A model generated the notes under the pieces. It was given only the letters and a program-made list of their open reading frames with translations. It did no database searches and was not told where the DNA came from. 22,154 nucleotides of DNA from a virus. Where the stretch lies: the IMG/VR virus record IMGVR_UViG_3300025425_000184, positions 1 to 22,154 of that record; one strand, written 5' to 3'. The position numbers and the translations under genes were made by a program. Each line of letters opens with the position of its first letter. The stretch's first letter is position 1. This document shows positions 1-17,185 of the stretch, piece by piece.

Positions 1-2666
1 GTGAAGCATTGTATGTTCTTGTTAAGAGCCGTGAACGTGCCCTCGGTCATACGTGAATGTTCGTCTAGGTTAATACTTCCAAAGCCGTTTTCAAGCGTTA
101 AAACACCTCTATAAATATTGTCCCCTCGTGGTGCTTCAACAAATGAATGCGCTAATCGATGTGTCTTTTCTTTGCTTTTTAATGGGTGCGGAATATTGAA
201 TGTACCGCTACCTTTGGTTAGTGCTCCTGATATATCTACATCAGTGAAAAAATCAAAATTACCACCTCCAGCAGACCCAGACTGAGTGTATTTAAATATT
301 TCAGTAGCTATCTCTTTTAAAGAGAAATTATTTCCTATTGTCTGAAAACGATAGTCATAACTAAGGCCAGAATTTGCAAAAATGGTTGCGTTTTTGAAAA
401 TCAAAAAGTCATTAAAAGTACCCTGCTCAGCAATTAGGTTTCCAGATATTGTGGCGTCACCATTTGTAAATACCGCAAACTTTTCAGTTCCACTACTGTT
501 CCCAACTGAAAATAAACGGGTGGCCGATGCTCCTATGTAAGATCTAACCGTGCCATCATCTTTAAATATTTGTTTATAAAGAGCCTCGTTTTCGTTATCT
601 AAAGTCAAACAAGTACCTGTGGATCTTACTGTAATAGGAGACCCAAACGTACCACCACTAGATGCGCTAACAAAATCAGTTGGTAGAGTTTGGTCGCCAG
701 TATTAGTTCCTGATAAATTTGTGGCAGATATAGATCCACCGAAAGCTCCTCCACTAGATGCGCTCACAAAGTCAGTGGGTAAAGTTTGGTCGCCAGTATT
801 AGTTCCTGATAAATTTGTGGCAGATATAGATCCACCGAAAGCTCCTCCACTAGATGCGCTCACAAAGTCAGTGGGTAAAGTTTGGTCGCCAGTATTAGTT
901 CCCGATAAATTTGTGGCAGATATAGATCCACCGAAAGCTCCTCCACTAGATGCGCTCACAAAGTCAGTGGGTAAAGTTTGGTCGCCAGTATTAGTTCCTG
1001 ATAAATTTGTGGCAGATATAGATCCACCGAAAGCTCCTCCACTAGATGCGCTCACAAAGTCAGTAGGAATAGCTTGTGCGCTTATTAGTCCATCATTATC
1101 AGTTATAGCCATTCTAGCTCCGCCACCAGCTAATGTAGAAAATTTAACTCCTGTCTTAAAATCAAAATAACCGCCACCAGCAGAACCTACTTGAGTGTAT
1201 TTCAGTATTTCAGTGGCTATCTCTTTTAAAGAAAAATTATTTCCTATTGTTTGAAAACGATAGTCATAACTAGAGCCAGAATTTCCAAAAATGGTTGCGT
1301 TTTTGAAAATCACAATGTCATTAAAAGTACCTCCATTGGCTGCGCTAACAAAGTCGGTGGGTAAAGTTTGGTCACCCGTATTATTTCCGCTTAATATTGC
1401 ATCGGTTATTGAGGTATTAAACTCGTCAATAGTTCCTGTAATTCCTACTATTGAATCTTGGGTTATGTTTGATACTTTAGCTGTATTTGCTAATACATCT
1501 GTATTCGATGAAACCCTTGCCTCCGTGTAGTATAAATTAGTTACCTCGCTTATGTTAGATGTATTTAAAACGACCGCCCCAGTTTGACTATTTACGCTAA
1601 CTACATCATCGGAATTGTCACTTTTTTCCACATCTCCATTGACGTTATAAATAAGCCAGTCACCCAAGCTCCAAACAATACCGAATCTAGTCGCTGCAAC
1701 ACTGACATTATAAACGTAAGACACCTTACTAGTGTCTGGATTGATAAGTGTTGGTGTGTTTGTTGAGGCATTCCACACCCCTTGATATTGTAGTAGCGTT
1801 GACGGAAGCTGAGTTAACGGCACTTTACCGCCAGAATCAAGGCTGCCATATCCGTTGTTTGCTCCCTTTTCCGAAATTAACTGATAGTCATTTAAGTTGA
1901 TTCCTAAATTAGCTCTCGCTCCACTAGCATTAACAGCACCCGTTCCCCCTCCAATAATAGACAGCGGATTACTTGATCCGTCTAGTTCCATTTTACAATC
2001 GAAGGTCGTGCCGTCAAATGATACACCTATAATATTATAGACTACTGCTGAATCATCTGGAAAAGTCAAAGCGTTCGAGGCAAATGTCACACCCGTTGGT
2101 AATACCGAATCCTTGAAATCAACTGTTATACCCGCGATCGTTAATACCGTCTCACCCGTGTTTGTAATTTGTAAAGTGAAGCTGTATAAGTTGTTGACAT
2201 TTGTTAAAGTCAATGTATTACTAGCTGTATAAATACCTTGAGCCCTTGAAGATTCGAAGCCTAATGCGTTCCATGCTGTGGCATTTGTGCCGAGATCGAT
2301 CTGGCTAGTCTGTGTTAACGCCAGTGTCTTAGCAATAAATCGAGACGTTGCCGAATCGTATACTATCGCTTGATTGTTGGCTGGGCTTGAAATATTAACG
2401 TCCGCTAAATCAACAAGATTTTCAATAAAACCAAATTCGTCAGCTTGAAGCCTATAAGCCGCACCGCCTCTTATAACGATTACTTCGTCACCCGCAGCCA
2501 AAGCGGCCGCAGCTTGAACACCTGACAAAACATTACCGCGAGACTGCGATAAAAACATTTCATCTATAATCGCATCGTTAACCGTTCTATGCTTAACCGC
2601 TGGGATTTGACCATTACTAGCTAGTTGCGCGTTCGATGTCGCTTTTAATTCTGCTGCTGTTGCCAT
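1..2666 (-). CDS. Tail fibre / receptor-binding protein, C-terminus cut by window edge
   Basis: An open frame runs without a stop from the ATG at 2666 to the left edge, giving at least 888 residues. The N-terminus (ATAAELKATSNAQ) is followed by motifs common in phage fibres: a GGTGAVNASGARANLG segment, a GSLDSGGKVPLTQLPSTLLQ segment, and a SQTGAVVLNTSNI / TNLYYTEARV segment. Residues about 534-673 are a 32-residue tandem repeat, and a 58-residue block is present twice (about 446-503 and 748-806). From about residue 821 a GTFNIPHPLKSKEKTH / EAPRGDNIYRG / MTEGTFTALNKNIQCF segment appears, a C-terminal fibre module I recall from many marine phage fibres. The gene starts 4 nt after the connector gene and is the last structural gene visible. 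It probably forms trimeric distal fibres that bind the host surface. The plus-strand frames here are shadows. Confidence 0.85.
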   Translation of the reverse strand, partial: MATAAELKATSNAQLASNGQIPAVKHRTVNDAIIDEMFLSQSRGNVLSGVQAAAALAAGDEVIVIRGGAAYRLQADEFGFIENLVDLADVNISSPANNQAIVYDSATSRFIAKTLALTQTSQIDLGTNATAWNALGFESSRAQGIYTASNTLTLTNVNNLYSFTLQITNTGETVLTIAGITVDFKDSVLPTGVTFASNALTFPDDSAVVYNIIGVSFDGTTFDCKMELDGSSNPLSIIGGGTGAVNASGARANLGINLNDYQLISEKGANNGYGSLDSGGKVPLTQLPSTLLQYQGVWNASTNTPTLINPDTSKVSYVYNVSVAATRFGIVWSLGDWLIYNVNGDVEKSDNSDDVVSVNSQTGAVVLNTSNISEVTNLYYTEARVSSNTDVLANTAKVSNITQDSIVGITGTIDEFNTSITDAILSGNNTGDQTLPTDFVSAANGGTFNDIVIFKNATIFGNSGSSYDYRFQTIGNNFSLKEIATEILKYTQVGSAGGGYFDFKTGVKFSTLAGGGARMAITDNDGLISAQAIPTDFVSASSGGAFGGSISATNLSGTNTGDQTLPTDFVSASSGGAFGGSISATNLSGTNTGDQTLPTDFVSASSGGAFGGSISATNLSGTNTGDQTLPTDFVSASSGGAFGGSISATNLSGTNTGDQTLPTDFVSASSGGTFGSPITVRSTGTCLTLDNENEALYKQIFKDDGTVRSYIGASATRLFSVGNSSGTEKFAVFTNGDATISGNLIAEQGTFNDFLIFKNATIFANSGLSYDYRFQTIGNNFSLKEIATEIFKYTQSGSAGGGNFDFFTDVDISGALTKGSGTFNIPHPLKSKEKTHRLAHSFVEAPRGDNIYRGVLTLENGFGSINLDEHSRMTEGTFTALNKNIQCF
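250..424 (-). repeat. Duplicated fibre block, C-terminal copy
   Basis: About 175 bp that match 1158-1332 with only scattered differences. Both encode the segment FKNATIF(G/A)NSG followed by YDYRFQTIGNNFSLKEIATE and KYTQ(V/S)GSAGGG. The two copies lie 908 bp apart in the same orientation and frame and flank the 96-bp repeat array. Confidence 0.9.
649..1067 (-). repeat. 96-bp in-frame tandem repeat in the fibre gene
   Basis: Three almost identical 96-bp units begin at 745, 841 and 937; the only difference I see is a T/C at the GATAAATTT stretch of the second. They are flanked by a diverged copy (649-744) and a partial copy (1033-1067). Each unit encodes 32 residues containing GTNTGDQTLPTDFVSASSGG. 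A further diverged copy of the core lies at about 1330-1395. The unit is a multiple of three, so gain or loss of copies keeps the frame and changes shaft length. Confidence 0.95.
1158..1332 (-). repeat. Duplicated fibre block, N-terminal copy
   Basis: Partner of 250-424. It directly follows, in protein order, a diverged copy of the GDQTLPTDFVSA repeat core, so repeat core plus block looks like one module that was duplicated. Confidence 0.9.
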
Positions 2667-2670
2667 TTTT

Positions 2671-3213
2671 TTAATTTAAAACGTCATAGTCGTAACGTCC
2701 GTTTCTGAATCCGAACGGTCTTTTATTTTTTCTCTTGATTGGGCTAATAATATTAACGCGGCTGTTAATCGTTTTGCTTTCAACATAAATAACAGAATCG
2801 AAAGTAAACAGAACCTTCTTCAATCGGTCGGTCATTTCGCTAACAGCAACGGCCATGTCAGCGCGTTTCATTCTTAGAATATTAGCCCTCTCAACTTCAC
2901 CCACTTGCGTATAGGTGCCACGCGGATCAGTTGGCTTTGTAACTCCAAACTGAGTTACATTAATACCGTGCTCTACCATAAATCGGATATAAGTAGCTAA
3001 CGCCCATACCTCTTTAACGTAGTCGTTATAAAATGTAGCTAGTTCGTTATCTGCATCATCTGCCAATGCTAAGATAGCCGTCACCATATCGGCTGTTAGG
3101 TACGGCTGTACGTCATACTTTCGTGCATTCAAGATGTGCGGGTCTATCATTCGATCCGTTATATTGGTCGTGAACTGAGAATAAACAGCTAAGTTTGCTT
3201 TAGTTAATTGCAT
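2671..3213 (-). CDS. Putative head-tail connector (adaptor) protein
   Basis: A 180-residue, largely helical protein with no signal peptide or membrane segment. It starts at an ATG that overlaps the 3' end of the portal gene by 14 nt, so it is probably co-translated with the portal. The C-terminus is basic (SPIKRKNKRPFGFRNG), resembling small adaptor proteins of Bacteroidota phages. Position next to the portal, size and helical character suit a ring protein that docks under the portal and links it to the tail. No catalytic motif is visible. The assignment rests on context and general resemblance. Confidence 0.6.
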   Translation of the reverse strand: MQLTKANLAVYSQFTTNITDRMIDPHILNARKYDVQPYLTADMVTAILALADDADNELATFYNDYVKEVWALATYIRFMVEHGINVTQFGVTKPTDPRGTYTQVGEVERANILRMKRADMAVAVSEMTDRLKKVLFTFDSVIYVESKTINSRVNIISPIKRKNKRPFGFRNGRYDYDVLN

Positions 3214-4726
3214 CTTCTTCCTCCTCTTCTTCTTTAGTTACAAGAAATATATCTACTTCCTCATCTGTAAAACCGTAGCTGCTTTTTAGTAAAACGGCTG
3301 CTTGTTCATAAGTAAATTGATCTTGATTAAACTTTCGAATTATCCTTTGAAATCCTTGAATTTGTCGGCCTGTTAAGTCTCTCAGGACGGAATTTGTGGT
3401 ATCGGCTTCCGTGTCAATAGCGGTAATCGGCTGGCCTAGTTCATCAATTTCGGTTTGCACTTTTGGAATTTCAAACAATAGCCGAACCTCTTGGTCTGTT
3501 AATCTGCTTAGAATAGAATCGGGTAGTAAGCTGAATGGGTTTAATTTAGATATCGTAAAGTCTAAATTTTCGCCATTAAGTAGGTTTGGTTTTAATGAGT
3601 TAAGCTTGTACGTAATATAGTTCTGAATATTTATAATAGATATGTAAAATAAATCCATTGTGTTTTTGAGTTCTTGAACATTCCCTAACGTGCCAGCCGT
3701 TTTAAAGCCGCACAAAATAGGAGGAACACCCGCAAGCCTGCACACCTTTTCACCTACTCGAATCGTAGACTTTTCGGTCATGTCAATTATCTCTTTGTTA
3801 TCCAGCACCGTAACCTTGGCCATTTCTTCGGGCGTGCTTGCTTGAAGATGCAATACCCTTGCAGCATCTGCGCCGCAGAACTGTTCTAAGTTCGCATCAA
3901 AGTAGTCTTTAGGTGTCTTTCCGTCATCGTCTTCGTTTTGGTCGTCAATGACACCAGTGGCTACTACAACCTGAGCGCGCCAACCTTGCAATATGTTTGA
4001 GGCTTCTAGCTGTGAAATAGCCCCGTCACTTATAATATCTTCAATGCCAGCGTAAAAGTCAGGCACTGGATATAGATCGTAGTTACGGCCTAACTTTGTG
4101 CGAAAGCAGTAAAATATTTCACCTAGTTGTTGGCTGTGTTCCTTTTGCTCTTGCTTAATGATTTCGCGCCTCTGATATTTATCTAAGTCACCATTATAAG
4201 CACGGTATGTTATGGTGTGGTTTTCCATTTTAGACATTTCACCCATTAATCGATTGACTCTAAAGTTATCGTTACGCTTACGAATCCAAGGAATAGGAAC
4301 TACTTTAGTTTCTACAATCTTGTTTTCGTAGTTAAAGAACTCCTTTAAAGCAAAGCCGTTAAGCTTACATTGATTTTCTACGATTTCAGAAAGCACTTCA
4401 TTCCAGGTTTGATCTTTATTGGCCATCGCATTACCCGTGGCTTCGTCTGCGAACCCGTCAGCTTCAATAAACTGTTTTAGCTTATTTATGGCAATAGTAG
4501 CCGTCCCGCTATTGTTGATATGCTCAATGATCTGATTGGGCAAGTCATCGCGTTCACCATAATAGTACCAACCGTTTTGCGACTTTTCGATGTACGCAAT
4601 AGCATTCTTATACAGTCCAGCGACCGCATCTTTCACCAAGCCGAACGCACCTTTTTTAGCGAAGTTCGGCTTTTGCTTTTCGGCTTCGATTGGTTGGTTT
4701 CTAAATGCGTTTCGTTTACTCGCCAT
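3200..4726 (-). CDS. Portal protein
   Basis: 508 residues, a normal length for a siphovirus portal. The segment around residues 330-371 (GVPPILCGFKTAGTLGNVQE, then DLFYISIINIQNYI) matches the conserved portal pattern in which a G-x-L-x-N-x-Q-E motif precedes a long helix near the tunnel. Residues 1-60 are basic and aromatic. The C-terminus (about 476-508) carries GFTDEEVDIF and an acidic run. Portals form the dodecameric ring at one capsid vertex through which DNA is pumped by the terminase. The ATG at 4726 overlaps the upstream 107-aa gene by 11 nt and the connector follows with a 14-nt overlap, so the three form one translation unit. It is unusual that the portal is far downstream of the terminase and behind the capsid gene. 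Confidence 0.85.
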   Translation of the reverse strand: MASKRNAFRNQPIEAEKQKPNFAKKGAFGLVKDAVAGLYKNAIAYIEKSQNGWYYYGERDDLPNQIIEHINNSGTATIAINKLKQFIEADGFADEATGNAMANKDQTWNEVLSEIVENQCKLNGFALKEFFNYENKIVETKVVPIPWIRKRNDNFRVNRLMGEMSKMENHTITYRAYNGDLDKYQRREIIKQEQKEHSQQLGEIFYCFRTKLGRNYDLYPVPDFYAGIEDIISDGAISQLEASNILQGWRAQVVVATGVIDDQNEDDDGKTPKDYFDANLEQFCGADAARVLHLQASTPEEMAKVTVLDNKEIIDMTEKSTIRVGEKVCRLAGVPPILCGFKTAGTLGNVQELKNTMDLFYISIINIQNYITYKLNSLKPNLLNGENLDFTISKLNPFSLLPDSILSRLTDQEVRLLFEIPKVQTEIDELGQPITAIDTEADTTNSVLRDLTGRQIQGFQRIIRKFNQDQFTYEQAAVLLKSSYGFTDEEVDIFLVTKEEEEEEDAIN

Positions 4727-5039
4727 CTAAAGCCCTGTTTATGGCATTCAGAATCGCGTCCTCAGACTTTGCACGACCTAGCTTAATGCCGTTCATCGAT
4801 GCGTAGTCTCTAAGCTGCTTAACAGTCCAGTCTTTGTTTGGCGCGTCTTGTGGGAAAGAATCGGCTTCGGCTTCTATCACTTCCTCCACCTCTCCGATTA
4901 ATGCGAAATTATGATTAAACTTATTTGGCCAACGCTTAAATAATATCTCTACGTCTTCATCTGTAAAGCCTGTATCTGTGATCGTTCTGTTATCAATGGG
5001 AATATGAATCGAAAATTGTTGAATAGCTTTATATTTCAT
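4716..5039 (-). CDS. Small protein with HeH/SAP-like C-terminal motif
   Basis: 107 residues. The C-terminal part (about 69-105, beginning DWTVKQLRDYASMNGIKLG) resembles the HeH/LEM or SAP helix-extended-loop-helix motif found in small phage head-region proteins. Residues 24-33 (GFTDEDVEIL) resemble the C-terminus of the neighbouring portal. The middle is acidic. It is the first gene after the terminator at 5101-5132 and overlaps the portal start by 11 nt. Function is unknown; a minor head or head-completion protein is plausible from location. Confidence 0.6.
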   Translation of the reverse strand: MKYKAIQQFSIHIPIDNRTITDTGFTDEDVEILFKRWPNKFNHNFALIGEVEEVIEAEADSFPQDAPNKDWTVKQLRDYASMNGIKLGRAKSEDAILNAINRALDGE

Positions 5040-5052
5040 CGCTTTGTATTTT

Positions 5053-5074
5053 CGACTAAATTAGTTAATAGTCG
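5053..5074. promoter_or_regulatory. Inverted repeat upstream of the 5039 gene
   Basis: CGACTA (5053-5058) and TAGTCG (5069-5074) form a perfect 6-bp inverted repeat around a 10-bp AT centre. It lies in the 61 bp between the terminator and the ATG at 5039, where a promoter for the portal unit would be expected. I see no good TAnnTTTG box here, so it could be an operator, a leader hairpin or chance. Confidence 0.3.
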
Positions 5075-5100
5075 TGTAAAAGCGTTAGAACATGGCCATA

Positions 5101-5132
5101 AAAAAAGCACTCCTATTTCTAAGAGTGCTTTA
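5101..5132 (-). terminator. Rho-independent terminator after the capsid/tube genes
   Basis: Read on the minus strand, AAAGCACTC / GAGTGCTTT form a 9-bp stem around a 10-nt loop, followed by a run of seven T. It sits 24 nt past the end of the 192-aa gene and before the 5039 gene, so it separates the capsid/tube unit from the portal/connector/fibre unit. Confidence 0.85.
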
Positions 5133-5155
5133 ACATATGAATGAATGAAGATTAC

Positions 5156-5734
5156 TTAAATAACCAAGTTGTCTAGATAAGCTATGTCGGCCGTTAAAGT
5201 CGTTGGAGTAGTTGCGGCATCGTTGAATATTAGCTGCAAGTTCTCCATGTCGCCTGTTAGACCCAAAGTAAACACGTTCGGATCAAGTAAAGCCGTTCCC
5301 GACCCGCCATCTAATGCAGATGCCTTTAGTCCGAAGTTGTCATAGTTCAAGCCTAAGTTCATGCCCCACGCTTCAATCTGACCGCTATTAGTTTCGACAA
5401 AAACACAAACGCCTTCCGCGTCTAGCAATGTTTCAATCGCTGCTAGTTCTGCCGCTGTGTCGTAATAGAGAACCAAGTTGATGGCTTGAGTTCGTAGGTT
5501 CTTATTTTCACCTACTGCCAAAGCCATTACGCTGTTGTTCTTATACCTTTTCCCCCTCGCTGTAATAAAGCCTTTAGATGCCGCGAAAGTTACTGCCGTG
5601 ATACTATTCCCTGTACCATCCGTTTTTGATGTTATGTCTGCGAGTAAAGCGATCCACACCCGTAAATCCAACCCACCCGATTTTTGGAGTGCTGAACATG
5701 CTGGTGCGAGGCTTACTGTTAATGCGTTACACAT
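5156..5734 (-). CDS. Probable major tail tube protein
   Basis: 192 residues, with no membrane segment, and rich in G, A, L and T. The C-terminal half (about 115-180, containing NSGQIEAWGMNLGLNYDNFG and a GGSGTALLDPN stretch) is the kind of beta-rich sequence seen in tail tube subunits. It is the gene right after the major capsid protein, separated from it by a weak hairpin. A minor capsid or decoration protein is the main alternative. The ATG at 5734 has an AT-rich upstream region, as in the neighbours. Confidence 0.5.
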   Translation of the reverse strand: MCNALTVSLAPACSALQKSGGLDLRVWIALLADITSKTDGTGNSITAVTFAASKGFITARGKRYKNNSVMALAVGENKNLRTQAINLVLYYDTAAELAAIETLLDAEGVCVFVETNSGQIEAWGMNLGLNYDNFGLKASALDGGSGTALLDPNVFTLGLTGDMENLQLIFNDAATTPTTLTADIAYLDNLVI

Positions 5735-5761
5735 ATCTATTTATATTTTAAAGTTAAAAAC

Positions 5762-5780
5762 AGGAGGTTTTTAGCCTCCC
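5762..5780 (-). terminator. Weak hairpin / partial terminator behind the capsid gene
   Basis: On the minus strand GGAGG and CCTCC pair around a 7-nt loop and are followed by TGTTTTT. It lies just past the capsid stop. The 5-bp stem is short, so partial termination or 3'-end protection of capsid mRNA is more likely than a full stop. Confidence 0.5.
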
Positions 5781-5787
5781 TATTTAA

Positions 5788-7023
5788 TTAAGCCTTTGGC
5801 CTGATGTAAAGAATTTCAGCACCATACTTGTATTGAGTCCCCGACTTCATTGAGTTGATGGCTCTGAATACTCTATCGCCAGTTGTCTGACCTAAGTATA
5901 ATACTTCCACATTAACGTCATCAGACATCAAATCAAAACCAACAAACACGTTAGAAGGATTCCATACAGCTACTGTATTCGGTAACCAAAGTGGCATCTT
6001 TTCGATAACCAACCCTAAGAATGGGATACCGCTTGACTGGAAGTAATCTTCCCTAAAGTACCCACCAGCACCAGTTCCAGCTTCACCGTTGACAACTCTG
6101 TAAGCGTCTGCAATTTGAGCGGAAACTAAGATTCTAGTGTTGTCCATGTCCTTCACTACTTGAGGAATAGTGTTATAAATGAAGTTCAAAACATCAATCA
6201 CATTGAACTTATTCACGAACTGAATAACACCAGCCGTTGAATCCGTTGCACCTGTGATAGCTTCGTTAACCGTTACAGTTTCGCCCGATACCGCAGCAAC
6301 CGTTACGGTCTGACCTACGATAGTAGTGCCTCCGATTTGTTGCGCTTGGTTAGCGGCTGTAATGGTTAGCTGATTGCCAACTTGTATTTTAGTACCGTCC
6401 GTAACCGTGATAGTAGCGGTTCCAACTGTGCCTGTGGCAATAGCCGTTAACGCTTGAGTAGCCGAAGCCACCGCGCTTAACTTGTATTTATTAACGTCCG
6501 AACCAGCTTCTAACTGGCCAAGGATGCCCGCGTAATCAGCACTAATACCCGTAGCAGTTGACCCACCGTAATTAACGCCAGCCTTACCTAGTAAGTAAAG
6601 TTGCTCGTTAACGCCGCCTAATTTTGGCGCGATAATATTGTTAAGATAGAAGTTGCTCAATCTTGGAGTTCCAAGGTAATCAGCAAACGAACCAGCCCCT
6701 AATTCTGTGGCCTCCCATGTAGTTCTCAAGGCATCGTAATCAGTCTGTAATTGGAGTTCATACTTTACTAGTTGCAATGATTTCTCATTCCTTACTAAGC
6801 CGCTTGATTGTGATGAAAATACTGCGCTTGGGTTCTTCAACTCCAAAGCTGCGTCCGCGCCTAATAAGGCGATCTTATCCTTGAATCCCTGGATAGGTGT
6901 TACTAGACCTCTGTCTACTATGCCCTTCGGCTTTAGTAGTGCTGGAGTCATATATTCTGCGTAAGATTCACCAGCATAGGTATTGCTAGGCAAACTAATC
7001 GCTACATTCTTAAATTTTGACAT
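5788..7023 (-). CDS. Major capsid protein, HK97-like, with an inserted beta domain
   Basis: 411 residues, directly downstream (12-nt gap) of the prohead protease/scaffold gene and ending in the motif GAEILYIRPKA. The flow from residue 80 (QLVKYELQLQTDYDALRTTW) through helices at 100-150 to the C-terminal beta strands (VIEKMPLWLPNTVAVWNPSN) fits the P- and A-domain plan of HK97-fold capsid proteins. Residues about 196-266 are a Thr/Val/Gly-rich stretch (GTATITVTDGTKIQVGNQLT, VGQTVTVAAVSGETVTV) that looks like an inserted beta-barrel or Ig-like domain, probably exposed on the capsid surface. No N-terminal delta domain is visible, consistent with the scaffold being supplied by the upstream gene. 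Confidence 0.8.
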   Translation of the reverse strand: MSKFKNVAISLPSNTYAGESYAEYMTPALLKPKGIVDRGLVTPIQGFKDKIALLGADAALELKNPSAVFSSQSSGLVRNEKSLQLVKYELQLQTDYDALRTTWEATELGAGSFADYLGTPRLSNFYLNNIIAPKLGGVNEQLYLLGKAGVNYGGSTATGISADYAGILGQLEAGSDVNKYKLSAVASATQALTAIATGTVGTATITVTDGTKIQVGNQLTITAANQAQQIGGTTIVGQTVTVAAVSGETVTVNEAITGATDSTAGVIQFVNKFNVIDVLNFIYNTIPQVVKDMDNTRILVSAQIADAYRVVNGEAGTGAGGYFREDYFQSSGIPFLGLVIEKMPLWLPNTVAVWNPSNVFVGFDLMSDDVNVEVLYLGQTTGDRVFRAINSMKSGTQYKYGAEILYIRPKA

Positions 7024-7035
7024 TGTTTCTTTTTT

Positions 7036-7641
7036 TTATGAGTTTAAGTTTCTAGCCTTTTGCATTGCAAGCTGGCGTGTTTTTTCTACGATAGACATTT
7101 TCGAGAAGTCTTCATTTGTAATAGATGCAGCCTTTAATAGCACTTTCGTGTCACCGCCTCCCATTACTTCCGTCTTCAATGCTTTCATTTGCTCGTTGAT
7201 TTCGGAAACTTTAGAATCAAAGTCTTTTTCCTTTTCAACAATCTGAGCCTTTAAAGCTTTGATTTCGTTTGACATTTTTTCTTTGTCATCTTCCATCGCT
7301 TTCTTTTCTTCTTCTAAAGCGACTATTTGCGAAGCCAAAGCCTCACCGTCTACCGCTTCAGCGACCGATACAACAACACCGTCTGCGCCAATTGTGATCA
7401 CTCTACCGTCTTCTAAAGTATGCTCACCCTCTGGCGCATTCTCTTCTGTTGGCATTCCTTCGCTTGCGATTACCGCACGCTTACCTTCGAACTCACCGTC
7501 TTCGCTGTATACAAAGAGTTCAGTAGTTCCGTCATTTAATTTGACAATCATATTTTTGGCACTGCCCGTAAAAAGGTTTTTCAAACCCTTAAGCATTGCC
7601 TCAATAGTTGTCAACCTTTTTTCTGCTGCTTCCGTAGCCAT
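7036..7641 (-). CDS. Candidate internal start: separate scaffold protein nested in the protease gene
   Basis: The in-frame ATG at 7641 (residue 204, MATEAAEKRLTTIEAMLKG) would give a 201-residue acidic coiled-coil protein without the protease domain. The DNA just upstream (about 7642-7682) is strikingly AT-rich, encodes an unremarkable linker (KLIMFNYKSIT), and looks like a Bacteroidota translation start region. Phage lambda makes its scaffold Nu3 in this way from the protease gene C. The internal start is an inference. Confidence 0.45.
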   Translation of the reverse strand: MATEAAEKRLTTIEAMLKGLKNLFTGSAKNMIVKLNDGTTELFVYSEDGEFEGKRAVIASEGMPTEENAPEGEHTLEDGRVITIGADGVVVSVAEAVDGEALASQIVALEEEKKAMEDDKEKMSNEIKALKAQIVEKEKDFDSKVSEINEQMKALKTEVMGGGDTKVLLKAASITNEDFSKMSIVEKTRQLAMQKARNLNS

Positions 7642-8250
7642 TGTGATTGATTTATAGTTAAACATTATTAATTTATTTTTCGAGGCCGTGACAGCCTTTA
7701 ATTCCTTTTCGTAGTACCCATGAGCGAAACCTAGTTCAACCGCTTGACTACCGATGTCTGTTTCTTGAGACATCAAAGCGAGTAGCGTTGAATCTTTAAG
7801 CCCCGTCTTTTCCTTGTAGATCGCTACTAGTTCCGCATCCATCGCCTCGAAGTCTGCTTTGAGTTCGGTCAGCGTATTAGCGTTCAATGTCATGTCCTCG
7901 ATCTCTTTGCCTTTGATCCATGCATTATGAATGGTCATGTTAGGCGTTTGATCTTTTGTCACTAGTCTATTTTTTCCAGCTAAGAAAACAATAGAGGCAA
8001 TCGAAGAAGCGTTAATTGATACCGTTGTAATATCCAACCCCTTTAACAGATTGTACATCTTCATTCCTTCTTCTACCATGCCACCGACCGAATCAATAAA
8101 GACAGTCGCTTCGCTAACGCCTTGAAGGTCGCGGACTAGATCATCATATGAATATGTCGGCAGACTTGAGTCCTCAAAATCTTGTTCAAATTCTTGCGGA
8201 GTAATTACGCCTCGTATAAAGATTTCCTTCACTTTTTTTGCTTTATACAA
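7036..8250 (-). CDS. ClpP-type prohead protease with C-terminal scaffold region
   Basis: Residues 1-185 are a ClpP-like (S14) serine protease: FIDSVGGMVEEG (51-62) is the oxyanion-side loop, Ser83 in NASSIASIVFLAG is the nucleophile, His108 in NMTIHNAW is the base, and Asp165 near AVELGF is the likely third residue, though this loop is shorter than in ClpP. Residues about 204-404 are charged and coiled-coil-rich, typical of a scaffold. It matures the prohead and helps assemble the capsid encoded just downstream. There is no ATG near the N-terminus: the frame opens at TTG (8250), with GTG at 8232 as an alternative that gives a more usual beginning (KEIFIRGVI). A stop lies four codons upstream of the TTG, so the start is restricted to these. 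Confidence 0.85.
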   Translation of the reverse strand: MYKAKKVKEIFIRGVITPQEFEQDFEDSSLPTYSYDDLVRDLQGVSEATVFIDSVGGMVEEGMKMYNLLKGLDITTVSINASSIASIVFLAGKNRLVTKDQTPNMTIHNAWIKGKEIEDMTLNANTLTELKADFEAMDAELVAIYKEKTGLKDSTLLALMSQETDIGSQAVELGFAHGYYEKELKAVTASKNKLIMFNYKSITMATEAAEKRLTTIEAMLKGLKNLFTGSAKNMIVKLNDGTTELFVYSEDGEFEGKRAVIASEGMPTEENAPEGEHTLEDGRVITIGADGVVVSVAEAVDGEALASQIVALEEEKKAMEDDKEKMSNEIKALKAQIVEKEKDFDSKVSEINEQMKALKTEVMGGGDTKVLLKAASITNEDFSKMSIVEKTRQLAMQKARNLNS

Positions 8251-8265
8251 AAATCCTTATATTTG
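8237..8265 (+). promoter_or_regulatory. Bacteroidota-type promoter of the plus-strand cassette
   Basis: TTTG at 8237-8240 as the -33 element and a perfect TATATTTG at 8258-8265 as the -7 element, 17 bp apart, matching the TTG-N17-23-TAnnTTTG consensus of Bacteroidota sigma factors. The ATG of the ribbon-helix-helix gene follows 18 nt later. The promoter overlaps the 5' end of the divergent protease gene. Confidence 0.7.
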
Positions 8266-8283
8266 GTAAACAATCCTTGAAAC

Positions 8284-8448
8284 ATGGCCATAAAAGAATC
8301 GAAAGATGTTAATACGAGAGTAGTCAGGGCTTTAGTTCCTAATTCAATGGAGCAAGAGTTCACAGAAATAGCCGAGCGCAGAAAAGTATCTAAGAGTAGC
8401 GTGATCAGAAAAGCTATTTGTGAGTTCAATAAAAAGTGGCGACTGTGA
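8284..8448 (+). CDS. Small ribbon-helix-helix DNA-binding protein
   Basis: A 54-residue protein: a basic N-terminal strand (DVNTRVVRALVP) followed by two helices (SMEQEFTEIAERRKV and KSSVIRKAICEFNKKW), the classical Arc/MetJ/CopG ribbon-helix-helix plan. Such proteins dimerise and bind short palindromes. A consensus promoter lies 18 nt upstream and it is the first gene of a plus-strand cassette inserted in an otherwise minus-strand late region. That makes it a good candidate regulator of this cassette, of the overlapping protease gene, or of the palindromes at 8466-8510, 9357-9372 and 20910-20925. The minus-strand frame covering 8229-8525 is a shadow. Confidence 0.8.
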   Translation: MAIKESKDVNTRVVRALVPNSMEQEFTEIAERRKVSKSSVIRKAICEFNKKWRL

Positions 8449-8465
8449 TGTATTTTGAAATAACT

Positions 8466-8510
8466 CCTACCTTTTCCGAACCTTATTGCGTAACCTTCGT
8501 AAAAGGTAGG
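8466..8510 (+). promoter_or_regulatory. Large inverted repeat in the leader between the regulator and the 114-aa gene
   Basis: CCTACCTTTT (8466-8475) and AAAAGGTAGG (8501-8510) are perfect 10-bp inverted repeats; after one mismatch the stem continues with CGAA/TTCG around a 15-nt loop. The direct repeat AACCTT occurs twice within the loop region. Outer bases GTGAT (8445-8449) and ATCAC (8520-8524) could extend the structure. It ends 16 nt before the ATG at 8527, so it may be an operator or an RNA switch. No T-run follows it, so it is not a simple terminator. Confidence 0.5.
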
Positions 8511-8526
8511 TAACGAACATATCACT

Positions 8527-8871
8527 ATGGAAGATTTAAAATTTAAGACGCTAAGCGTAGCGCATTCAAAGGCGATTCAAAAACGGCTCTTTAAACTAGG
8601 TTGTAAATGGGCTGGGTCTTTAGACCAAGAAATTGGTAACGCTGAAGGACTTTGTATCTATGTTTATGACAATAGGATGTATCACAACTTTTCAAAAGAT
8701 CCCTTTATTGATTACTCAGGTAAGTCGGCCACGCTTGATGATCTGTATAATGAATCCGTTATTAATCCAAAAAATGAAGATGCAAATAAAACTAAGATTG
8801 ATTCGTTAACGGTCGAAGTTGAACGGCTTTCAAAGCTTGTACATAAAATAGAAACAGACTTAGCTAAATAA
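8527..8871 (+). CDS. Conserved-type phage hypothetical protein, 114 aa
   Basis: The N-terminal part (SKAIQKRLFKLGCKWAGS, then YVYDNRMYHNFSKD, ATLDDLYNES) has the pattern of a widespread small phage protein family in which a helix and a GxxW motif precede short beta strands and a T-L-x-D-L motif. The C-terminus (about 83-114) is a predicted coiled coil. No enzymatic residues are recognised. It is the second gene of the plus-strand cassette, follows the large leader hairpin, and is separated from the next gene by 2 nt. Function unknown. Confidence 0.7.
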   Translation: MEDLKFKTLSVAHSKAIQKRLFKLGCKWAGSLDQEIGNAEGLCIYVYDNRMYHNFSKDPFIDYSGKSATLDDLYNESVINPKNEDANKTKIDSLTVEVERLSKLVHKIETDLAK

Positions 8872-8873
8872 AT

Positions 8874-9149
8874 ATGAAAATAATTAAATCGCTTTTTAAG
8901 ATAAAAGAAGAAACTTTATTTGACAAGAAAGGCAATGTTACATTAACAGAAGATTCTGCTTATTTAATGGATTGTATTTTAACAATATACGCTTCTGGAA
9001 TAGAAGTAAAAACATTGCATAGGCTTAATTTAGAGCTATACAGGTGTGGTGTATACATAAGTTACCCTGACCTTAAAAAGGTTATTACTTACCTATGTAA
9101 CGAAGGGCTATTATCTAAGCTAACCGATGATCTTGTAACTCTAAAATAA
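8874..9149 (+). CDS. Hypothetical protein, 91 aa, possible winged-helix fold
   Basis: It begins with a lysine-rich stretch (MKIIKSLFKIKEE), followed by alternating helices and a final pattern (YPDLKKVITYLCNEGLLSKL, DDLVTLK) like the recognition helix and wing of a winged-helix protein. It is not assigned to a family. It is 2 nt downstream of the 114-aa gene, and its TAA overlaps the ATG of the next gene by one base (TAATG), so the three are translationally coupled. Confidence 0.65.
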   Translation: MKIIKSLFKIKEETLFDKKGNVTLTEDSAYLMDCILTIYASGIEVKTLHRLNLELYRCGVYISYPDLKKVITYLCNEGLLSKLTDDLVTLK

Positions 9150-9295
9150 TGAGCAACCGAATAGGCCAAAATAAGCTATACGCCAACGGCATGAAGTCCA
9201 CTCCGTACTACCTTCGTCAGGGCTTTGTATTCGACTACGATAAGAAGCCGACCGAAAAGTTATTGATTAAAAATGGTGAAAAGGTTAAGGTATAA
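9149..9295 (+). CDS. Hypothetical small basic protein, 48 aa
   Basis: An open frame of 48 codons from the ATG overlapping the previous stop to the TAA at 9293. The product (MSNRIGQNKLYANGMKS, YYLRQGFVFDYDKKP, ending GEKVKV) is basic, with no membrane segment or Cys motif. Support comes from the tight TAATG coupling and from the fact that it fills the space up to the duplicated leader. Not recognised. Confidence 0.55.
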   Translation: MSNRIGQNKLYANGMKSTPYYLRQGFVFDYDKKPTEKLLIKNGEKVKV

Positions 9296-9391
9296 ACCGT
9301 CTGTATAATAATGATGCCACTCGTATAAACTAGACTAACAAGTTTCGATGCCTTGCGTATATTTGAATATACAAAACGATAAGAACATGAC
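9296..9391 (+). promoter_or_regulatory. Duplicated 96-nt leader, copy 1, with promoter and palindrome
   Basis: This aligns without gaps to 20891-20986 (minus strand). Conserved blocks are TGTATAATAAT, CCACTCGTRTAAA, then 23 variable bases, then a 3' block from TTGCG to the ATG. It contains TATATTTG (9358-9365), a perfect -7 box, inside the near-perfect palindrome GTATATTTGAATATAC (9357-9372). The start of the 78-aa gene is at 9387, about 15-18 nt behind the expected transcription start. The -33 element is not obvious. Confidence 0.7.
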
Positions 9392-9623
9392 AAACACAGA
9401 AACGGGATACACAGAAATGGGAAACAGCGCAGCATTTACAAGCAATAGAGAGGTAATCTTAGCTATCACAGAGGTCACTCAAGATAACTTATGGAGGTTC
9501 TCAGTAAAGTTAATGAGAACACTAAAAGAAGGTATTATAACCACAGATCAAATGGGTGGTCATATAGAGTGTTTTACAAGACACTGCAAAGCGGAAAAAA
9601 TAAACATGAACTACCCTTCATGA
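9387..9623 (+). CDS. Hypothetical protein, 78 aa, behind the duplicated leader
   Basis: Product begins MTNTETGYTEMGNSAAFTSN and ends KAEKINMNYPS; soluble, no recognised motif. The frame also opens further upstream at 9348, but the DNA between 9348 and 9386 belongs to the leader shared with 20891-20986, so the second ATG is preferred. It ends 7 nt before the convergent terminator. It has no visible similarity to the 72-aa protein behind the other leader copy, so the control region rather than the gene is shared. Confidence 0.6.
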   Translation: MTNTETGYTEMGNSAAFTSNREVILAITEVTQDNLWRFSVKLMRTLKEGIITTDQMGGHIECFTRHCKAEKINMNYPS

Positions 9624-9629
9624 ACATTC

Positions 9630-9660
9630 AAAAAAGGCTACTCTAATCGGTAGCCTTTTT
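9630..9660. terminator. Bidirectional terminator between cassette and tail operon
   Basis: A-run, GGCTAC (9636-9641), 8-nt loop, GTAGCC (9650-9655), T-run. With A/T tracts on both sides it works in both directions and ends both the plus-strand cassette and the minus-strand tail operon. The tape measure stop codon is embedded in its edge. Confidence 0.9.
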
Positions 9661-11995
9661 ATTGCAACCTACTCTCTACCCTTACTTTATTTCTGCTATT
9701 CGCCTTAGCTTGAATGTCAATGACCGATACAACGGGTGAAGGCATATTCTCAATAGCCGAAATGATAGCATTAATATCAAAGCCAGCATTAGCCCCGCTT
9801 GCAGACCTTCCAACAAATCCCCCGTCCGCATATCCTTTGAGCCTTGAAGATTCTAACGAGCCAATCAAGCCCGAAAACTTAGGGCTTTGGACTTGCCATT
9901 TAGGAACTACATATTCGTTTTCGTGAACTATGCCCGCTTGTCTGAATCCAGTTTCGTCTGAGTAGCCGTATCCGTTTCCAGTATGCCCACCGTCCGCAAA
10001 CGATCTTCGGCCTGTCTGTCTTCCTCCAGTAGAAGGGACTCTTGAAGTTCCTGTTTGAGCTTGTGCTGGCGGCACATTTGTAGAAGCGATCTTAGCTATT
10101 TGAACCGCGCCCGATATACCCGTTAATACTGCAAGTGGTATATTTGGCAAAGCTTGAGACACGGCTGTAGCTGTATTTATAAAGGCTTGAATACCCGCAA
10201 ATATTTTACCCGCTGCGGTTTCCCTTCCGAGTGATTCGATAGCAAAGTTAACAGCAAAGTTTGCAAGGTCTACTTTACCCTGTGCAACCGCGCTATTTTG
10301 AGCATCCAAAGCATCGGATGCCATTTGATTCGCTTTTAATTGCGCATCTAAACTAGAGGCTCTAATGCCTTGAATTTCATCTTCAGCGGATTGAATGATT
10401 GCGACTCGTTCGGCTTCGCTGATTGTCAAATCATTGTTAGCGTCATCGATTGCCAGTTGAGCATTAATCATTCTGATAGCTATTGCGCCCGCTTCGATCT
10501 CTGTTAAGCTGTCTTCATATTCTTGCTTAGATATTAATCCGTTCGCGTATCGTTCCTTTAGGTCGTTAATTTCGCGATCAGCAGTCACTAGCATTCTTTG
10601 CTCTTTAGCTTCTTCGAACTCGATATCCATTTCTTCAAATGAAATGAGCGCGTCTAGTTGGTCATCTCTTCTTTTTTCAAATGCCTCTTTAGCTATGGCC
10701 GTTCTTTTGTCGGTTTCTTGTTGAATGATTTGTGTTTGTTCACGGATCAAGCTGTTTTCATTTGTTAGCTGTTCGCTACGTTGTGAGTTTACACGCTCTT
10801 GTATTTCAAGTATTTTAAGTTCCGCTTCTGCTTTTTTGTCTAGGTTCGCTGTGCTATCTCCTTCGGCTTTGATTCTTAATTCTGAAATTTCTAAAGCCCT
10901 TTGAGCCAATAACAATTCCGATTCAGCTTGATCTTTTAATAAAGCCCCTAAATCTTTGTTAGCCTTAATACGATCAGGCATTGACTTAGATTCATCGTCT
11001 CTTAGCTGACGAAGCTTTTCGGCTTGAGTTTGAAATTCTAATTGAAGTTTTCCTTGTTGCCTTCTAATACCATTTAGTTCTGCTTCGGCTTTAGCTAGTT
11101 GAGCCGTGGCGATAGACGTTTCCTTAATCTTCTCTGTTAACACACCTAACGCAACCGATGCTTTATCAAATCCAAAAAATGACAATGCGTTCTGAACTTG
11201 CTTTGAAACTTTTTCAACAACAGCCCCTAATATTTCAAACCCTTTTGCAACGCCCTCAACTAAGAATGTTGCAACGGGTTCAAGCGCACTAAGTACGCCT
11301 CCTAATATTCCTTTGAATACATTCATGACAGAAGCCAATGCAGCACTACCTTCTTCGCTTCTGTTTAGTGAAGCGGTGAATAATTTAAATAACCCTACGA
11401 CCGAACCGATGACCAAAGCAACCGCGCCAATCGCAGCCCCTAATGGAGTAGCCAAGAATTTTAACGAAGCAACCGTTGCGGCTCTCAATCCGCTAACCAT
11501 TCCAACTAACCCCTGACCAAATGAACCCGTTGCCCCGACCGCTTCTTTTATTGAATCGGTATAGTTTCCAACATTTCGTCTAGTGTCGCCTGTGGCTTTT
11601 TCTTCTTTCTTTAATATTTCTGTTAACTCTAACTTTCGCTTTCCTAGCTTTTTAGATTCTTCTGAGTTTGCACCTTCTGCATCCGTAACCTTTGCCCATT
11701 GCTGAGACACTAACGACAGTTCTGCTCTTAGCTTTTCAATGGTTCCAGAACTTTGGCTTTGTATTTTGTTGTTTGCTATAACGACTCTTTCATTTTCTCT
11801 TAGGCTTTTACTATTTTCTTTTATCGTAATGTTGTTTTTGGTGATTGCCACGGAGTTATCTCCCTCAGCTTTGGATAGTTCTTTATTCGCTAGTCTTAAT
11901 TTATCGATCTCTCTACGCGCTTCGGCTGCTGCTGAAATTGCTTCCTCAACTTGTTTTTGGTCTATCCCGATGCTTAATAAAATATTCTCTTCCAT
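9659..11995 (-). CDS. Tail tape measure protein
   Basis: 778 residues. Residues 12-135 are charged and coiled-coil. Residues about 165-206 contain a long hydrophobic stretch (LKFLATPLGAAIGAVALVIG, then SVVGLFKLF), typical of tape measure proteins that later enter the host membrane. A second hydrophobic, Ala-rich region lies near 590-640 and a long coiled coil at about 290-560. The C-terminus has the repeated FADGGHTG / YADGGFVG motif and ENEYVVP seen in many tape measures. The protein sets tail length and may help DNA cross the membrane. It follows the 709-aa tail gene by 2 nt and is the last gene of the operon, which is unusual because tape measures normally precede the baseplate genes. Confidence 0.9.
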   Translation of the reverse strand: MEENILLSIGIDQKQVEEAISAAAEARREIDKLRLANKELSKAEGDNSVAITKNNITIKENSKSLRENERVVIANNKIQSQSSGTIEKLRAELSLVSQQWAKVTDAEGANSEESKKLGKRKLELTEILKKEEKATGDTRRNVGNYTDSIKEAVGATGSFGQGLVGMVSGLRAATVASLKFLATPLGAAIGAVALVIGSVVGLFKLFTASLNRSEEGSAALASVMNVFKGILGGVLSALEPVATFLVEGVAKGFEILGAVVEKVSKQVQNALSFFGFDKASVALGVLTEKIKETSIATAQLAKAEAELNGIRRQQGKLQLEFQTQAEKLRQLRDDESKSMPDRIKANKDLGALLKDQAESELLLAQRALEISELRIKAEGDSTANLDKKAEAELKILEIQERVNSQRSEQLTNENSLIREQTQIIQQETDKRTAIAKEAFEKRRDDQLDALISFEEMDIEFEEAKEQRMLVTADREINDLKERYANGLISKQEYEDSLTEIEAGAIAIRMINAQLAIDDANNDLTISEAERVAIIQSAEDEIQGIRASSLDAQLKANQMASDALDAQNSAVAQGKVDLANFAVNFAIESLGRETAAGKIFAGIQAFINTATAVSQALPNIPLAVLTGISGAVQIAKIASTNVPPAQAQTGTSRVPSTGGRQTGRRSFADGGHTGNGYGYSDETGFRQAGIVHENEYVVPKWQVQSPKFSGLIGSLESSRLKGYADGGFVGRSASGANAGFDINAIISAIENMPSPVVSVIDIQAKANSRNKVRVESRLQ

Positions 11996-11997
11996 TG

Positions 11998-14127
11998 CTA
12001 TAGTCTTATGAGCGTTACTAAGGTGCTTTCGCTTGCTGTTAAATTAAACTCGCTTACGTTGTTGATGTAAAAGTAATCATTAAAGTAGTCTATCCATATT
12101 GGTATCGTGCTGTCAAAGTTCTCAATATCAACTGTGGTTAGTCTTATAAAGCATTCAACTACTTTTGTTTTTTTCGTTGCGTCATTGAGTAAACTAAATC
12201 TTTGGTTTAGCACGTTTTGAAAAAGTATATTATTATTGGCTACTTCGTAATTAGCTGCAATAGTAGTGCCCCCAGTTATCTGCAATAGACTAGTTGTTGA
12301 TCTGTTAAGCTTGACTATTCTAGTTTTAAAGCCTTCAATCTTAGCGTCTGGGTCTAAGTTGTAATTCGTGCCGTCAAATATGTATTTGTTGCCCGTGAAG
12401 ATTTTAGCCATACTACGCGTGTCATTTAATAACGTCAAGTCAATAGCGCACAAAGAGAACGGTGCGGTGTATACTTCGCTTTCCAAGTCTATTGTAGTGT
12501 CAGCTATTGAAAATGTTCCGCGTCCGTAATTGGTTAAAGCCGATAAGAACGGATCGCTTTCGTCATTCGAATATTGGAAGTAGTTACTTTGAGCGTAGTT
12601 GCCTAGCTTAAATGAAACCTTTGGTTTTGTGCTTAGGTCTAGTTTTTCAGACCAGTCCAACGCGTTCGGCTTGTTATTAACTACGTCATTAACACGAACG
12701 AGTTCTATTGTCTTGTTGTATTCATCAACCTTTGGAAACACGCCCATAACATTGCACGTGTAAAGAAATGCGTTACCTACGTTAATATCTTCAAATGAAT
12801 CTAAGACATTAACAGTCGAGGGTATAATGGCATTATCGATTTGCTCAATGTTCATGCTAAAATCTGAAAAACTAAACGACCCTAGATTATCCGTCACCGC
12901 TGCGGGCTTGGTTTCAAGTGGACTAAATTCAATTTCGCTTTCGATCTTCCATACCATCACAAAGTTAGTGGCCGTCCCCGCTATCGATGCCAGAAATCCA
13001 GCGTTCAAAACCTCGATGTTAATAGGTATTGTTGGCGAATATATTTCTTGAGTTAGGTTAGTCGTTCCGTTTTGGTCTATGTAAGTCGCTGTGTAATATT
13101 CATATTCAAAGCTAAATGCGATACCATCAACGGCTCCCGTAGTCTTGTTGTATACATCCATTTGTATACGCATTATCGCAGATGTAACGAATAGATTTCG
13201 ATAGAAAGACTGTGGGCTATTTGTTGTAAACTGACCGTTTAGATTAAACTCAAACGTAGTCAGTGCTGAATATGTAGACGGAAAGTTATAACCGAAAGTT
13301 ATATACCCAAGCCCCGTTATTGTCGTGTCTCGATAAAGCCCGTCCGCGTCTGTAATTACGCTTGGAAAGTTTATCGGTGCTTTAACAATCGAGTTATCAA
13401 TGTAAACGGATTCCTTAACAGATAGCAATCCGAAAGGCAAAACACCGTTTATAAATTCATAATCAACAATGTAGTCGTTATTTGTACCTACCACATTCTT
13501 AGCGGGTATCGCTAAAGTACTGTACACGTCATCCGTCCATAAGTCGCCAATAGTCCTATACCCGATCAGCTCAATAGCCGAATCGATAATGAACTTTAGA
13601 TAAAGCGATGGCAGAAAAAAGTCGTATCGATAAGTCGATGTGTCGGCCTTGTCAAAGAATCCGTAATCAATGTTAGGATATACTATTCCTGTTGACTTGT
13701 CACGCAACGCCTCGACTCCCGCAATGCTGTAGTCATGTGTTAACGGTGTTAGGTAGTCCGCTAAGCTAGTTAAGCTAACCGATTTGATTAGCTGAAAGAA
13801 ATTACCGTCCCCGCTTTTAATGCTTAGTTGATAGTTGTTACCGTCAAAGCCCTCTAACGTGGCTACACCGTTGACCACTTCAGACCCGTCCACGTCAATG
13901 ATTGCAGTCAGTGACTTGTAAGGTTCGTCATTTGTTGAGTTGATTAATTCAGAGACGTTTAATATGTCTCTATTCTTTTGATTGTTGGCTGGGACGTTAA
14001 AGATGTTCGAAAAACTAGCCGAACGGATTCCTAAAGTCAAAAGGTCATACCCTATTACTGAGTATACTATTGGTTCGTTTCCACTTAGGTGGATGCGTTC
14101 GCCTTCGATCTTTATGTTCGTGTTCAT
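11998..14127 (-). CDS. Large tail / baseplate protein (hub-like)
   Basis: 709 residues, beta-rich, no membrane segment. The N-terminus (LTLGIRSASFSNIFNVPANN followed by QKN) matches the pattern of tail or baseplate proteins of Bacteroidota phages, in which an R-x-A-x-F-x-x-x-F-x-x-P motif leads into the first domain. Later parts have Tyr/Asn-rich strands and a VFPKVDEYNKTIELVRVN segment, as in hub proteins. It overlaps the upstream 60-aa gene by 4 nt and abuts the tape measure gene. Likely role: distal tail or baseplate hub. No hydrolase signature is seen. Confidence 0.65.
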   Translation of the reverse strand: MNTNIKIEGERIHLSGNEPIVYSVIGYDLLTLGIRSASFSNIFNVPANNQKNRDILNVSELINSTNDEPYKSLTAIIDVDGSEVVNGVATLEGFDGNNYQLSIKSGDGNFFQLIKSVSLTSLADYLTPLTHDYSIAGVEALRDKSTGIVYPNIDYGFFDKADTSTYRYDFFLPSLYLKFIIDSAIELIGYRTIGDLWTDDVYSTLAIPAKNVVGTNNDYIVDYEFINGVLPFGLLSVKESVYIDNSIVKAPINFPSVITDADGLYRDTTITGLGYITFGYNFPSTYSALTTFEFNLNGQFTTNSPQSFYRNLFVTSAIMRIQMDVYNKTTGAVDGIAFSFEYEYYTATYIDQNGTTNLTQEIYSPTIPINIEVLNAGFLASIAGTATNFVMVWKIESEIEFSPLETKPAAVTDNLGSFSFSDFSMNIEQIDNAIIPSTVNVLDSFEDINVGNAFLYTCNVMGVFPKVDEYNKTIELVRVNDVVNNKPNALDWSEKLDLSTKPKVSFKLGNYAQSNYFQYSNDESDPFLSALTNYGRGTFSIADTTIDLESEVYTAPFSLCAIDLTLLNDTRSMAKIFTGNKYIFDGTNYNLDPDAKIEGFKTRIVKLNRSTTSLLQITGGTTIAANYEVANNNILFQNVLNQRFSLLNDATKKTKVVECFIRLTTVDIENFDSTIPIWIDYFNDYFYINNVSEFNLTASESTLVTLIRL

Positions 14128-14306
14128 TTATCTTTTCCGTATTCGTTCTCGATTGTGATATGCGCTTGGTCATCCCAAGCTAAAGCCCTATTTAAAACGA
14201 TAGCCCTCCCACTTGCGTTCAATTCGTTCATAGACTTAGCAAATTCTGTTAAAGTGTTCTTTGTTTCGTTTAGAACTGTGACTAAGTTGTTAGTTTCTTT
14301 GCTCAT
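14124..14306 (-). CDS. Hypothetical small protein, 60 aa
   Basis: A short, helical protein (NNLVTVLNETKNTLTEFAKS) with a mixed-charge C-terminus; no motif recognised. It overlaps the 709-aa gene by 4 nt, so it is probably translated with it. Its start region (CGACATGAGCAAAGAA) is identical to that of the 164-aa gene 500 bp upstream. Confidence 0.55.
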   Translation of the reverse strand: MSKETNNLVTVLNETKNTLTEFAKSMNELNASGRAIVLNRALAWDDQAHITIENEYGKDK

Positions 14307-14311
14307 GTCGA

Positions 14312-14806
14312 TTATCCTTTAGTACAATGTTCTGATAAGTCTTTGTCAAAAGATTCCATAAAATCTGCTTTGATTAGTTCCAAGTCGCTGTTAACAACGT
14401 ATTGTCCGTTAACGTCATAGAGCCAAATACCTTTGTTGAATAGTATTTCAAAGTTGTTTTTTTTAATAAACTTGTTTGTCTGTTTTTGAGATAAGTTTCT
14501 TAAAACGTGTTTTTTTCTATCCTCGTCAAACCCGATATACATCTTAACATTTAAGTCGCAAACCCATAAGGCTTCCCCTAATATGTCACATTTAATTGCA
14601 ACGATATACTCATTATCTTCGTTTCGATAGTATTTTGTTTCGCAAATGATAGCATCGTTTTGATCTATTGAATCCATGTGGACATACCTAGTCTCTGAAG
14701 TAAGCCCTTTAAATGCTAAGTAAGAAAGTATGTCTTCCATATTTTCTGTTGGTTCACATATTTGCTTAGTACGTTCTATGTATGCTTCTTTTTGTTCTTT
14801 GCTCAT
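14312..14806 (-). CDS. Hypothetical protein, 164 aa, possible inserted accessory gene
   Basis: A charged protein with several Cys (ICEPTENMEDILSY, CDILGEALWVCDLNVK); no domain recognised and no membrane segment. It is more AT-rich by eye than the tail genes on either side. It shares its first four residues and 16 nt of start context with the 60-aa gene directly downstream, so gene plus spacer forms a 500-bp unit bounded by direct repeats. It is not obviously structural, and may be an accessory insertion in the tail operon. Confidence 0.6.
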   Translation of the reverse strand: MSKEQKEAYIERTKQICEPTENMEDILSYLAFKGLTSETRYVHMDSIDQNDAIICETKYYRNEDNEYIVAIKCDILGEALWVCDLNVKMYIGFDEDRKKHVLRNLSQKQTNKFIKKNNFEILFNKGIWLYDVNGQYVVNSDLELIKADFMESFDKDLSEHCTKG

Positions 14807-14811
14807 GTCGT

Positions 14812-15741: not shown

Positions 15742-15750
15742 ATCTTGTAT

Positions 15751-15984
15751 TTACTTCTTTAAAAGCTTATCCCCTGTAAGCCCGCCTTCTATAAATGACT
15801 TATGCCCGTAAGTTTTGTCTATCTCTTTATTGCTGACCTCGGAACAACATCCATCTACAGGTAATGTTTGCCCTTGGTTTAGTGCTAAATTTAACGCATT
15901 AAGCACCGTTTGCTTTCCGTAAAAATCATCAAGTCCTTGCTTAATGCTTGGCATATCTTTTAATATTTCTTCTGCTTTTTTCAT
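15751..15984 (-). CDS. Hypothetical protein, 77 aa
   Basis: A small soluble protein with a helical N-terminus (KKAEEILKDMPSIKQGLDDF) and a central GCCSEVSN with two adjacent Cys. Not recognised. It lies between two structural genes with short spacers of 9 and 21 nt and is probably part of the tail operon. Confidence 0.55.
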   Translation of the reverse strand: MKKAEEILKDMPSIKQGLDDFYGKQTVLNALNLALNQGQTLPVDGCCSEVSNKEIDKTYGHKSFIEGGLTGDKLLKK

Positions 15985-16005
15985 AATTCAGTTTTATTTA
16001 GTTGT

Positions 16006-16908: not shown

Positions 16909-16909
16909 G

Positions 16910-17137
16910 TTATTTGTTTAAATATACTTTGTTTTTCCAGTCGTAAAAATATTCTTTTCCGTTGACCATTTTAATTATTACATCAGAATTGCCTGTTTGC
17001 TCGATTGCGTTCTTTTCTTTTCGATTAGTATCTATTTCAAGAATAACGCCCAATAAAAAAAGAGACAATATCACTACGGCTAAAAACCATAGAATTTCGC
17101 GGTAGTAAATAATATAATCTTTAATTAAATTCCCCAT
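16910..17137 (-). CDS. Small single-pass membrane protein, 75 aa
   Basis: One clear membrane helix at about residues 15-33 (ILWFLAVVILSLFLLGVIL), preceded by YYRE and followed by a charged tail (DTNRKEKN) and a small C-terminal domain (VNGKEYFYDWKNKVYLNK). It starts from an ATG 48 nt after the gp10-like gene and ends 1 nt before the 300-aa gene. It could be a holin-like, superinfection-exclusion or tail-associated membrane protein; no lysis partner is next to it, so none of these can be chosen. Confidence 0.6.
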   Translation of the reverse strand: MGNLIKDYIIYYREILWFLAVVILSLFLLGVILEIDTNRKEKNAIEQTGNSDVIIKMVNGKEYFYDWKNKVYLNK

Positions 17138-17185
17138 AGCTATTTTAGTTTTGTCTCTTCAATTTACGTAAACCATCGCGAAAGG

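Follow-up and report, generated by a model that had tools for sequence, protein, structure and literature searches.

The repeat array described here is probably a tandemly amplified linker of 32 amino acids that recombines within a modular tail fibre, in the distal half of the protein. It is located in the IMG/VR virus record IMGVR_UViG_3300025425_000184, which was analysed over its entire length of 22,154 bases and is referred to as the window. The window carries a tailed-phage gene set with family matches for the terminase large subunit, portal, head maturation protease, and tape measure proteins. The array resides in an ORF for a tail-fibre-like structural protein, the C terminus of which is missing because the contig ends there. 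Residues 262-406 of this ORF match phrog_13892 (minor tail protein, E 4.3e-27), and 96 of 50,697 phage records match the fibre in tblastn, all with less than 60% identity; most of the 40 matches listed are annotated as minor tail, tail fibre, or hypothetical proteins. This homology to annotated phage tail proteins supports the assignment of the predicted gene product as a fibre-like tail protein. Pfam searches of the ORF gave no family at E 0.01.

Relatives were sought in the IMG/VR viral contigs with the fibre, the portal, and the probable capsid proteins, the latter being a guess at the major capsid protein from gene order, as its PHROG has no function. Two close relatives were identified, IMGVR_UViG_3300023239_000038 (G001) and IMGVR_UViG_3300023293_000082 (G002). 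With the portal, two further fragments of more remote relationship (75%) were also recovered from the viral contigs, and the scan with the probable major capsid protein returned G001 and G002 only. Window and G001 are 99.28% identical over 18,645 bp without gaps (window 1476-20120, G001 1-18645), window and G002 99.32% over 20,557 ungapped bp, and G001 and G002 99.96% over 18,701 bp. All three are colinear to rc position 20679, where homology ends. The fibre region is spanned by G001 alone, whose fibre is complete with 805 aa; G002 stops approximately 15 bases into the array edge. A repeat-caused assembly failure was considered for this end of G002; so short an overlap does not permit this conclusion. 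The IMG numbers of these records point to the Ace Lake series, and a source in Ace Lake, Antarctica, is likely. Passages of PMC9716671 name the Ace Lake bins 3300023227, 3300023237, and 3300023253, which are close in numbering; neither exact number was encountered in them, and no paper was found that mentions 3300023239. No PDB sequence match was obtained for the fibre of the window or of G001 at E up to 1. The features of the fibre gene are the following.

3-2666, minus strand: ORF of the tail-fibre-like structural protein, 888 aa, C terminus missing
1476-2666, minus strand: conserved N-terminal part of the fibre (codons 1-397), shared almost unchanged by G001 and G002
255-1475, minus strand: distal fibre region, replaced in G001 apart from the repeat units (alignment and BLAST)
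about 1329-1364, minus strand: LPTDFVSA linker motif as a single isolated copy, at residue 435
1158-1331, minus strand: 58-aa module, copy 1 (direct repeat D3), N-terminal to the array
975-1070, minus strand: unit w1, IPTDFVSASSGGAFGGSISATNLSGTNTGDQT, three changes within the first six bases
879-974, minus strand: unit w2, distinguished from w3 by one silent change
783-878, minus strand: unit w3, LPTDFVSASSGGAFGGSISATNLSGTNTGDQT
687-782, minus strand: unit w4, identical to w3
about 645-686, minus strand: partial fifth unit, diverged, LPTDFVSASSGGTF, amino acids conserved and base differences mostly silent
249-422, minus strand: 58-aa module, copy 2, C-terminal to the array
1-254, minus strand: beginning of the conserved C-terminal domain, 89.8% identical to G001 at the DNA level

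The near-identical 96-bp repeats noticed in the initial annotation were recovered by TRF as an array at 655-1064 with a period of 96 bp, 4.3 copies, 98% match, and a score of 785, compared to a best score of 62 among the 14 arrays found in total in 100 dinucleotide shuffles of the window. Read in coding phase, the array comprises four full near-identical 32-aa units (687-1070, minus strand) and the partial, diverged fifth unit. In the phase in which the repeats were originally delimited (742-830, 838-926, and 934-1022), three units indeed differ by a single base, situated at plus-strand position 903 in a silent Ser codon. The diverged copies described on either side of them are mostly an effect of the array edges, beyond which lie the partial fifth unit and the solitary linker motif. 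Since the period amounts to 32 codons, a change in copy number stays in frame, as had been proposed. The unit LPTDFVSASSGGAFGGSISATNLSGTNTGDQT is not built of the Gly-X-Y tripeptides that characterise collagen-like repeat fibres. An AlphaFold2 model of the array region from 7 sequences gave the same strand pattern for each unit, with a poor mean pLDDT of 45.9 that is too weak for use. A plus-strand ORF at 619-1170 (183 aa) was rejected, as it is very likely not a gene; it runs antisense to the array and is open because the array period is a multiple of three.

The two 174-nt copies of the 58-aa module lie in direct orientation with the array between them and are identical at 156 of 174 positions; BLAST of the window against G001 gave no match at either copy. 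Recombination between both copies would delete the array.

In the G001 fibre, codons ~397 to ~804 are replaced except for the repeat units, and codons 1-397 as well as the C-terminal part are shared with the window. A conserved base is thus combined with an exchanged distal part in the one close relative that spans the gene. Over the C-terminal 254 bp, window and G001 differ at 26 positions, 15 of them in nonsynonymous codons. Due to this divergence, which is far above the genome background, the C-terminal end may belong to the exchanged block as well, and the downstream breakpoint is a putative one. Downstream of the G001 fibre, a holin was found over its cut-off, an M15 peptidase just below, and a Laminin_G_3 domain below the cut-off.

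The 135 mismatches between window and G001 are clustered, and the three longest stretches free of mismatches (2991, 2926, and 2787 bp) exceed the maximum of 2362 obtained in 20,000 draws under a uniform null. The run of 2926 bp ends within the fibre gene at G001 18455 (about codon 334); past this position divergence climbs, and homology is gone at codon ~397. A detectable breakpoint is hence located between codons ~334 and ~397, upstream of the array and outside it. Such a mosaic pattern would be expected if homologous recombination imported a different fibre end. We presume that the array grows, shrinks, and becomes homogeneous through homologous recombination or slippage between its units, and that recombination may import new distal modules that are inserted between an anchor and a C-terminal cap, both of them conserved, with the array as a shared sequence island that may serve as one crossover site. 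The likely outcome would be variation in putative receptor binding, with a change in shaft length as a side effect.

The array differs between the two phages. The three full units of G001 (L1 to L3) share 86-94% mutual identity, and L1 is 97.9% identical to w2 of the window, whereas its identity to the neighbouring units L2 and L3 is 86.5% and 93.8%, respectively. FastTree grouped L1 with w2 among the seven units with a support of 0.848, based on few informative sites. This similarity points to a possible exchange of units between the alleles; it could also be older than the split of the two alleles.

The linker motif itself appears to be widespread. The GTNTGDQT pattern occurs in at least 120 viral stretches, and the longer pattern of NTGDQ, linker, and PT-x-FV in 14, of which 13 contain one match and G001 contains three. 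After translation, each of the 13 single-match stretches shows one NTGDQ per ORF, with an adjoining degenerate half-copy in case of L147 and L155. Among the matches listed, a tandem array with a period of 30 or more lies near the GTNTGDQT motif in 7 of 120; both sets of stretches (14 and at least 120) were chosen by motif, and not all of them are independent genomes. Near-identical tandem arrays beside NTGDQ were also seen at L113:3460-4095 (234 bp x 2.7, 94%) and L053:11735-11954 (57 bp x 3.9, 96%). In other phage fibre-like proteins, the motif joins different modules. It seems to be a linker commonly placed between modules of fibres, and its amplification in tandem is uncommon in this sample. 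The array protein gave no tblastn match in the phage records, possibly in part owing to the low-complexity filter. In a search for the host, the genome contigs yielded no stretch with the repeat-linker pattern and no relative of the portal protein. In the phage records, the terminase matched 464 entries, all with less than 60% identity, and the portal none.

It is tempting to speculate further that the array is a built-in recombination adaptor, in which a widely shared linker was amplified and otherwise unrelated tips are swapped through homologous recombination inside the array, so that copy change and homogenisation would be by-products. This extension is tentative and on balance doubtful. 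A crossover at the array itself was not directly observed, as only two alleles could be compared.

A rival reading, which corresponds to the length-variable fibre of the initial annotation, regards the array chiefly as a length switch: within a single population, unequal recombination would add or remove units without disturbing the frame and thereby alter fibre length and reach. The period of 32 codons and the near identity of the units are in agreement with it. Counting the repeats in relatives, as had been suggested, gave three full units in G001 versus four in the window, a further point in its favour. A difference in copy number is thus supported, but not as a difference on its own, given that codons ~397 to ~804 are replaced too. 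G001 differs from the window by a whole distal module and in the array flanks, and no pair of alleles differing in copy number alone was found in the viral collection. We consider it unlikely that a length switch is the main function. Because the distal half of the G001 fibre is replaced, the main variation seen is module exchange rather than copy number alone.

The difference of four versus three units has to be read with the assembly in mind. The array is the only site of repeated 55-mers in the window, 127-mers repeat there too, and the longest exact repeat extends over 161 bp; the copy number of the window is therefore uncertain. If repeats beyond the word length of the assembler were folded or unfolded, the true array would be longer, shorter, or mixed, and a wrong count of this kind is judged improbable. 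The array itself is real and no assembly artefact: G001 has no repeated 55-mer and its three units are distinguishable, and the units of the window differ internally. With no repeated 55-mer in G001, its three units are a more secure count than the four of the window.

As for the origin of the near identity between units, a codon null was constructed in which the 32-aa protein was kept and the codons were redrawn from the usage of the two genes themselves (20,000 simulated sets). The mean pairwise identity under this null was 69.2 of 96 positions, compared to an observed 94.0 in the window (six pairs) and 86.7 in G001 (three pairs), and none of the 20,000 sets reached the observed identity of either the window or G001. 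An average of 94 of 96 identical positions versus 69 from random synonymous codons supports that the identity of the units reflects recent duplication or homogenisation, as initially proposed, and not protein constraint. As the null is exceeded in both arrays, both result from duplication or homogenisation at the DNA level, and this event is more recent in the window than in G001. That old repeats were merely held alike by selection on the protein, without a recent DNA event, would suit the strong conservation of the 32-aa unit and the mostly silent differences between the G001 units, but is very improbable in view of the 0 of 20,000 same-protein sets. Hardly credible, too, is a dedicated diversifier of the fibre tip, i.e., a diversity-generating retroelement or a DNA invertase: the variation is concentrated in the distal fibre, but PF00078 (reverse transcriptase, which would be expected near such a retroelement), PF00239 (serine recombinase), and PF00589 (tyrosine recombinase) were each found in 0 of the 3 records, all of which are fragments.

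The reading of the array as an amplified, recombining linker can be compared with several known systems; among the papers listed on repeat copy-number variation in tail fibres, none addressed the matter directly, and passages of PMC9863714 and PMC4791379 had no bearing on it. The complete C-terminal domain of the G001 fibre matches tail fibre and structural proteins of cyanophages in 10 records with 51-55% identity. Among these, the tail fibre and virion structural proteins of the cyanophages P-SSM2 and S-TIM5 are alike in this C-terminal domain at 51-55% identity, a homology assessed over the last 155 residues of the G001 fibre. The C-terminal fibre domain in common with cyanophage proteins, recorded at L003:6951-7415, is a possible widespread C-terminal cap. 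Collagen-repeat proteins resemble the fibre in that their repeats separate domains of a protein with a variable part; they differ in that the units of the window are not Gly-X-Y. In the tail fibre adhesin of T4-like phages, duplications of a small domain reportedly expand the host range, a report attributed to Tetart et al. 1996 and cited in PMC6957217 and PMC9603124. As in the window, small segments are repeated in the distal fibre and change by duplication; unlike in that adhesin, the repeat of the window is a 32-aa linker, and the likeness is drawn without any claim of a sequence relation. Since modular fibres and duplicated domains have been described before, the present case extends a known theme. 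It provides a natural pair of phages, ~99.3% identical elsewhere, in which two different fibre tips are joined through the same repeat, and thus allows one to ask whether tandem fibre linkers are sites of tip exchange. The array represents a naturally occurring case of an established type of variation in phages, with its repeats marking a recombining part of the fibre.
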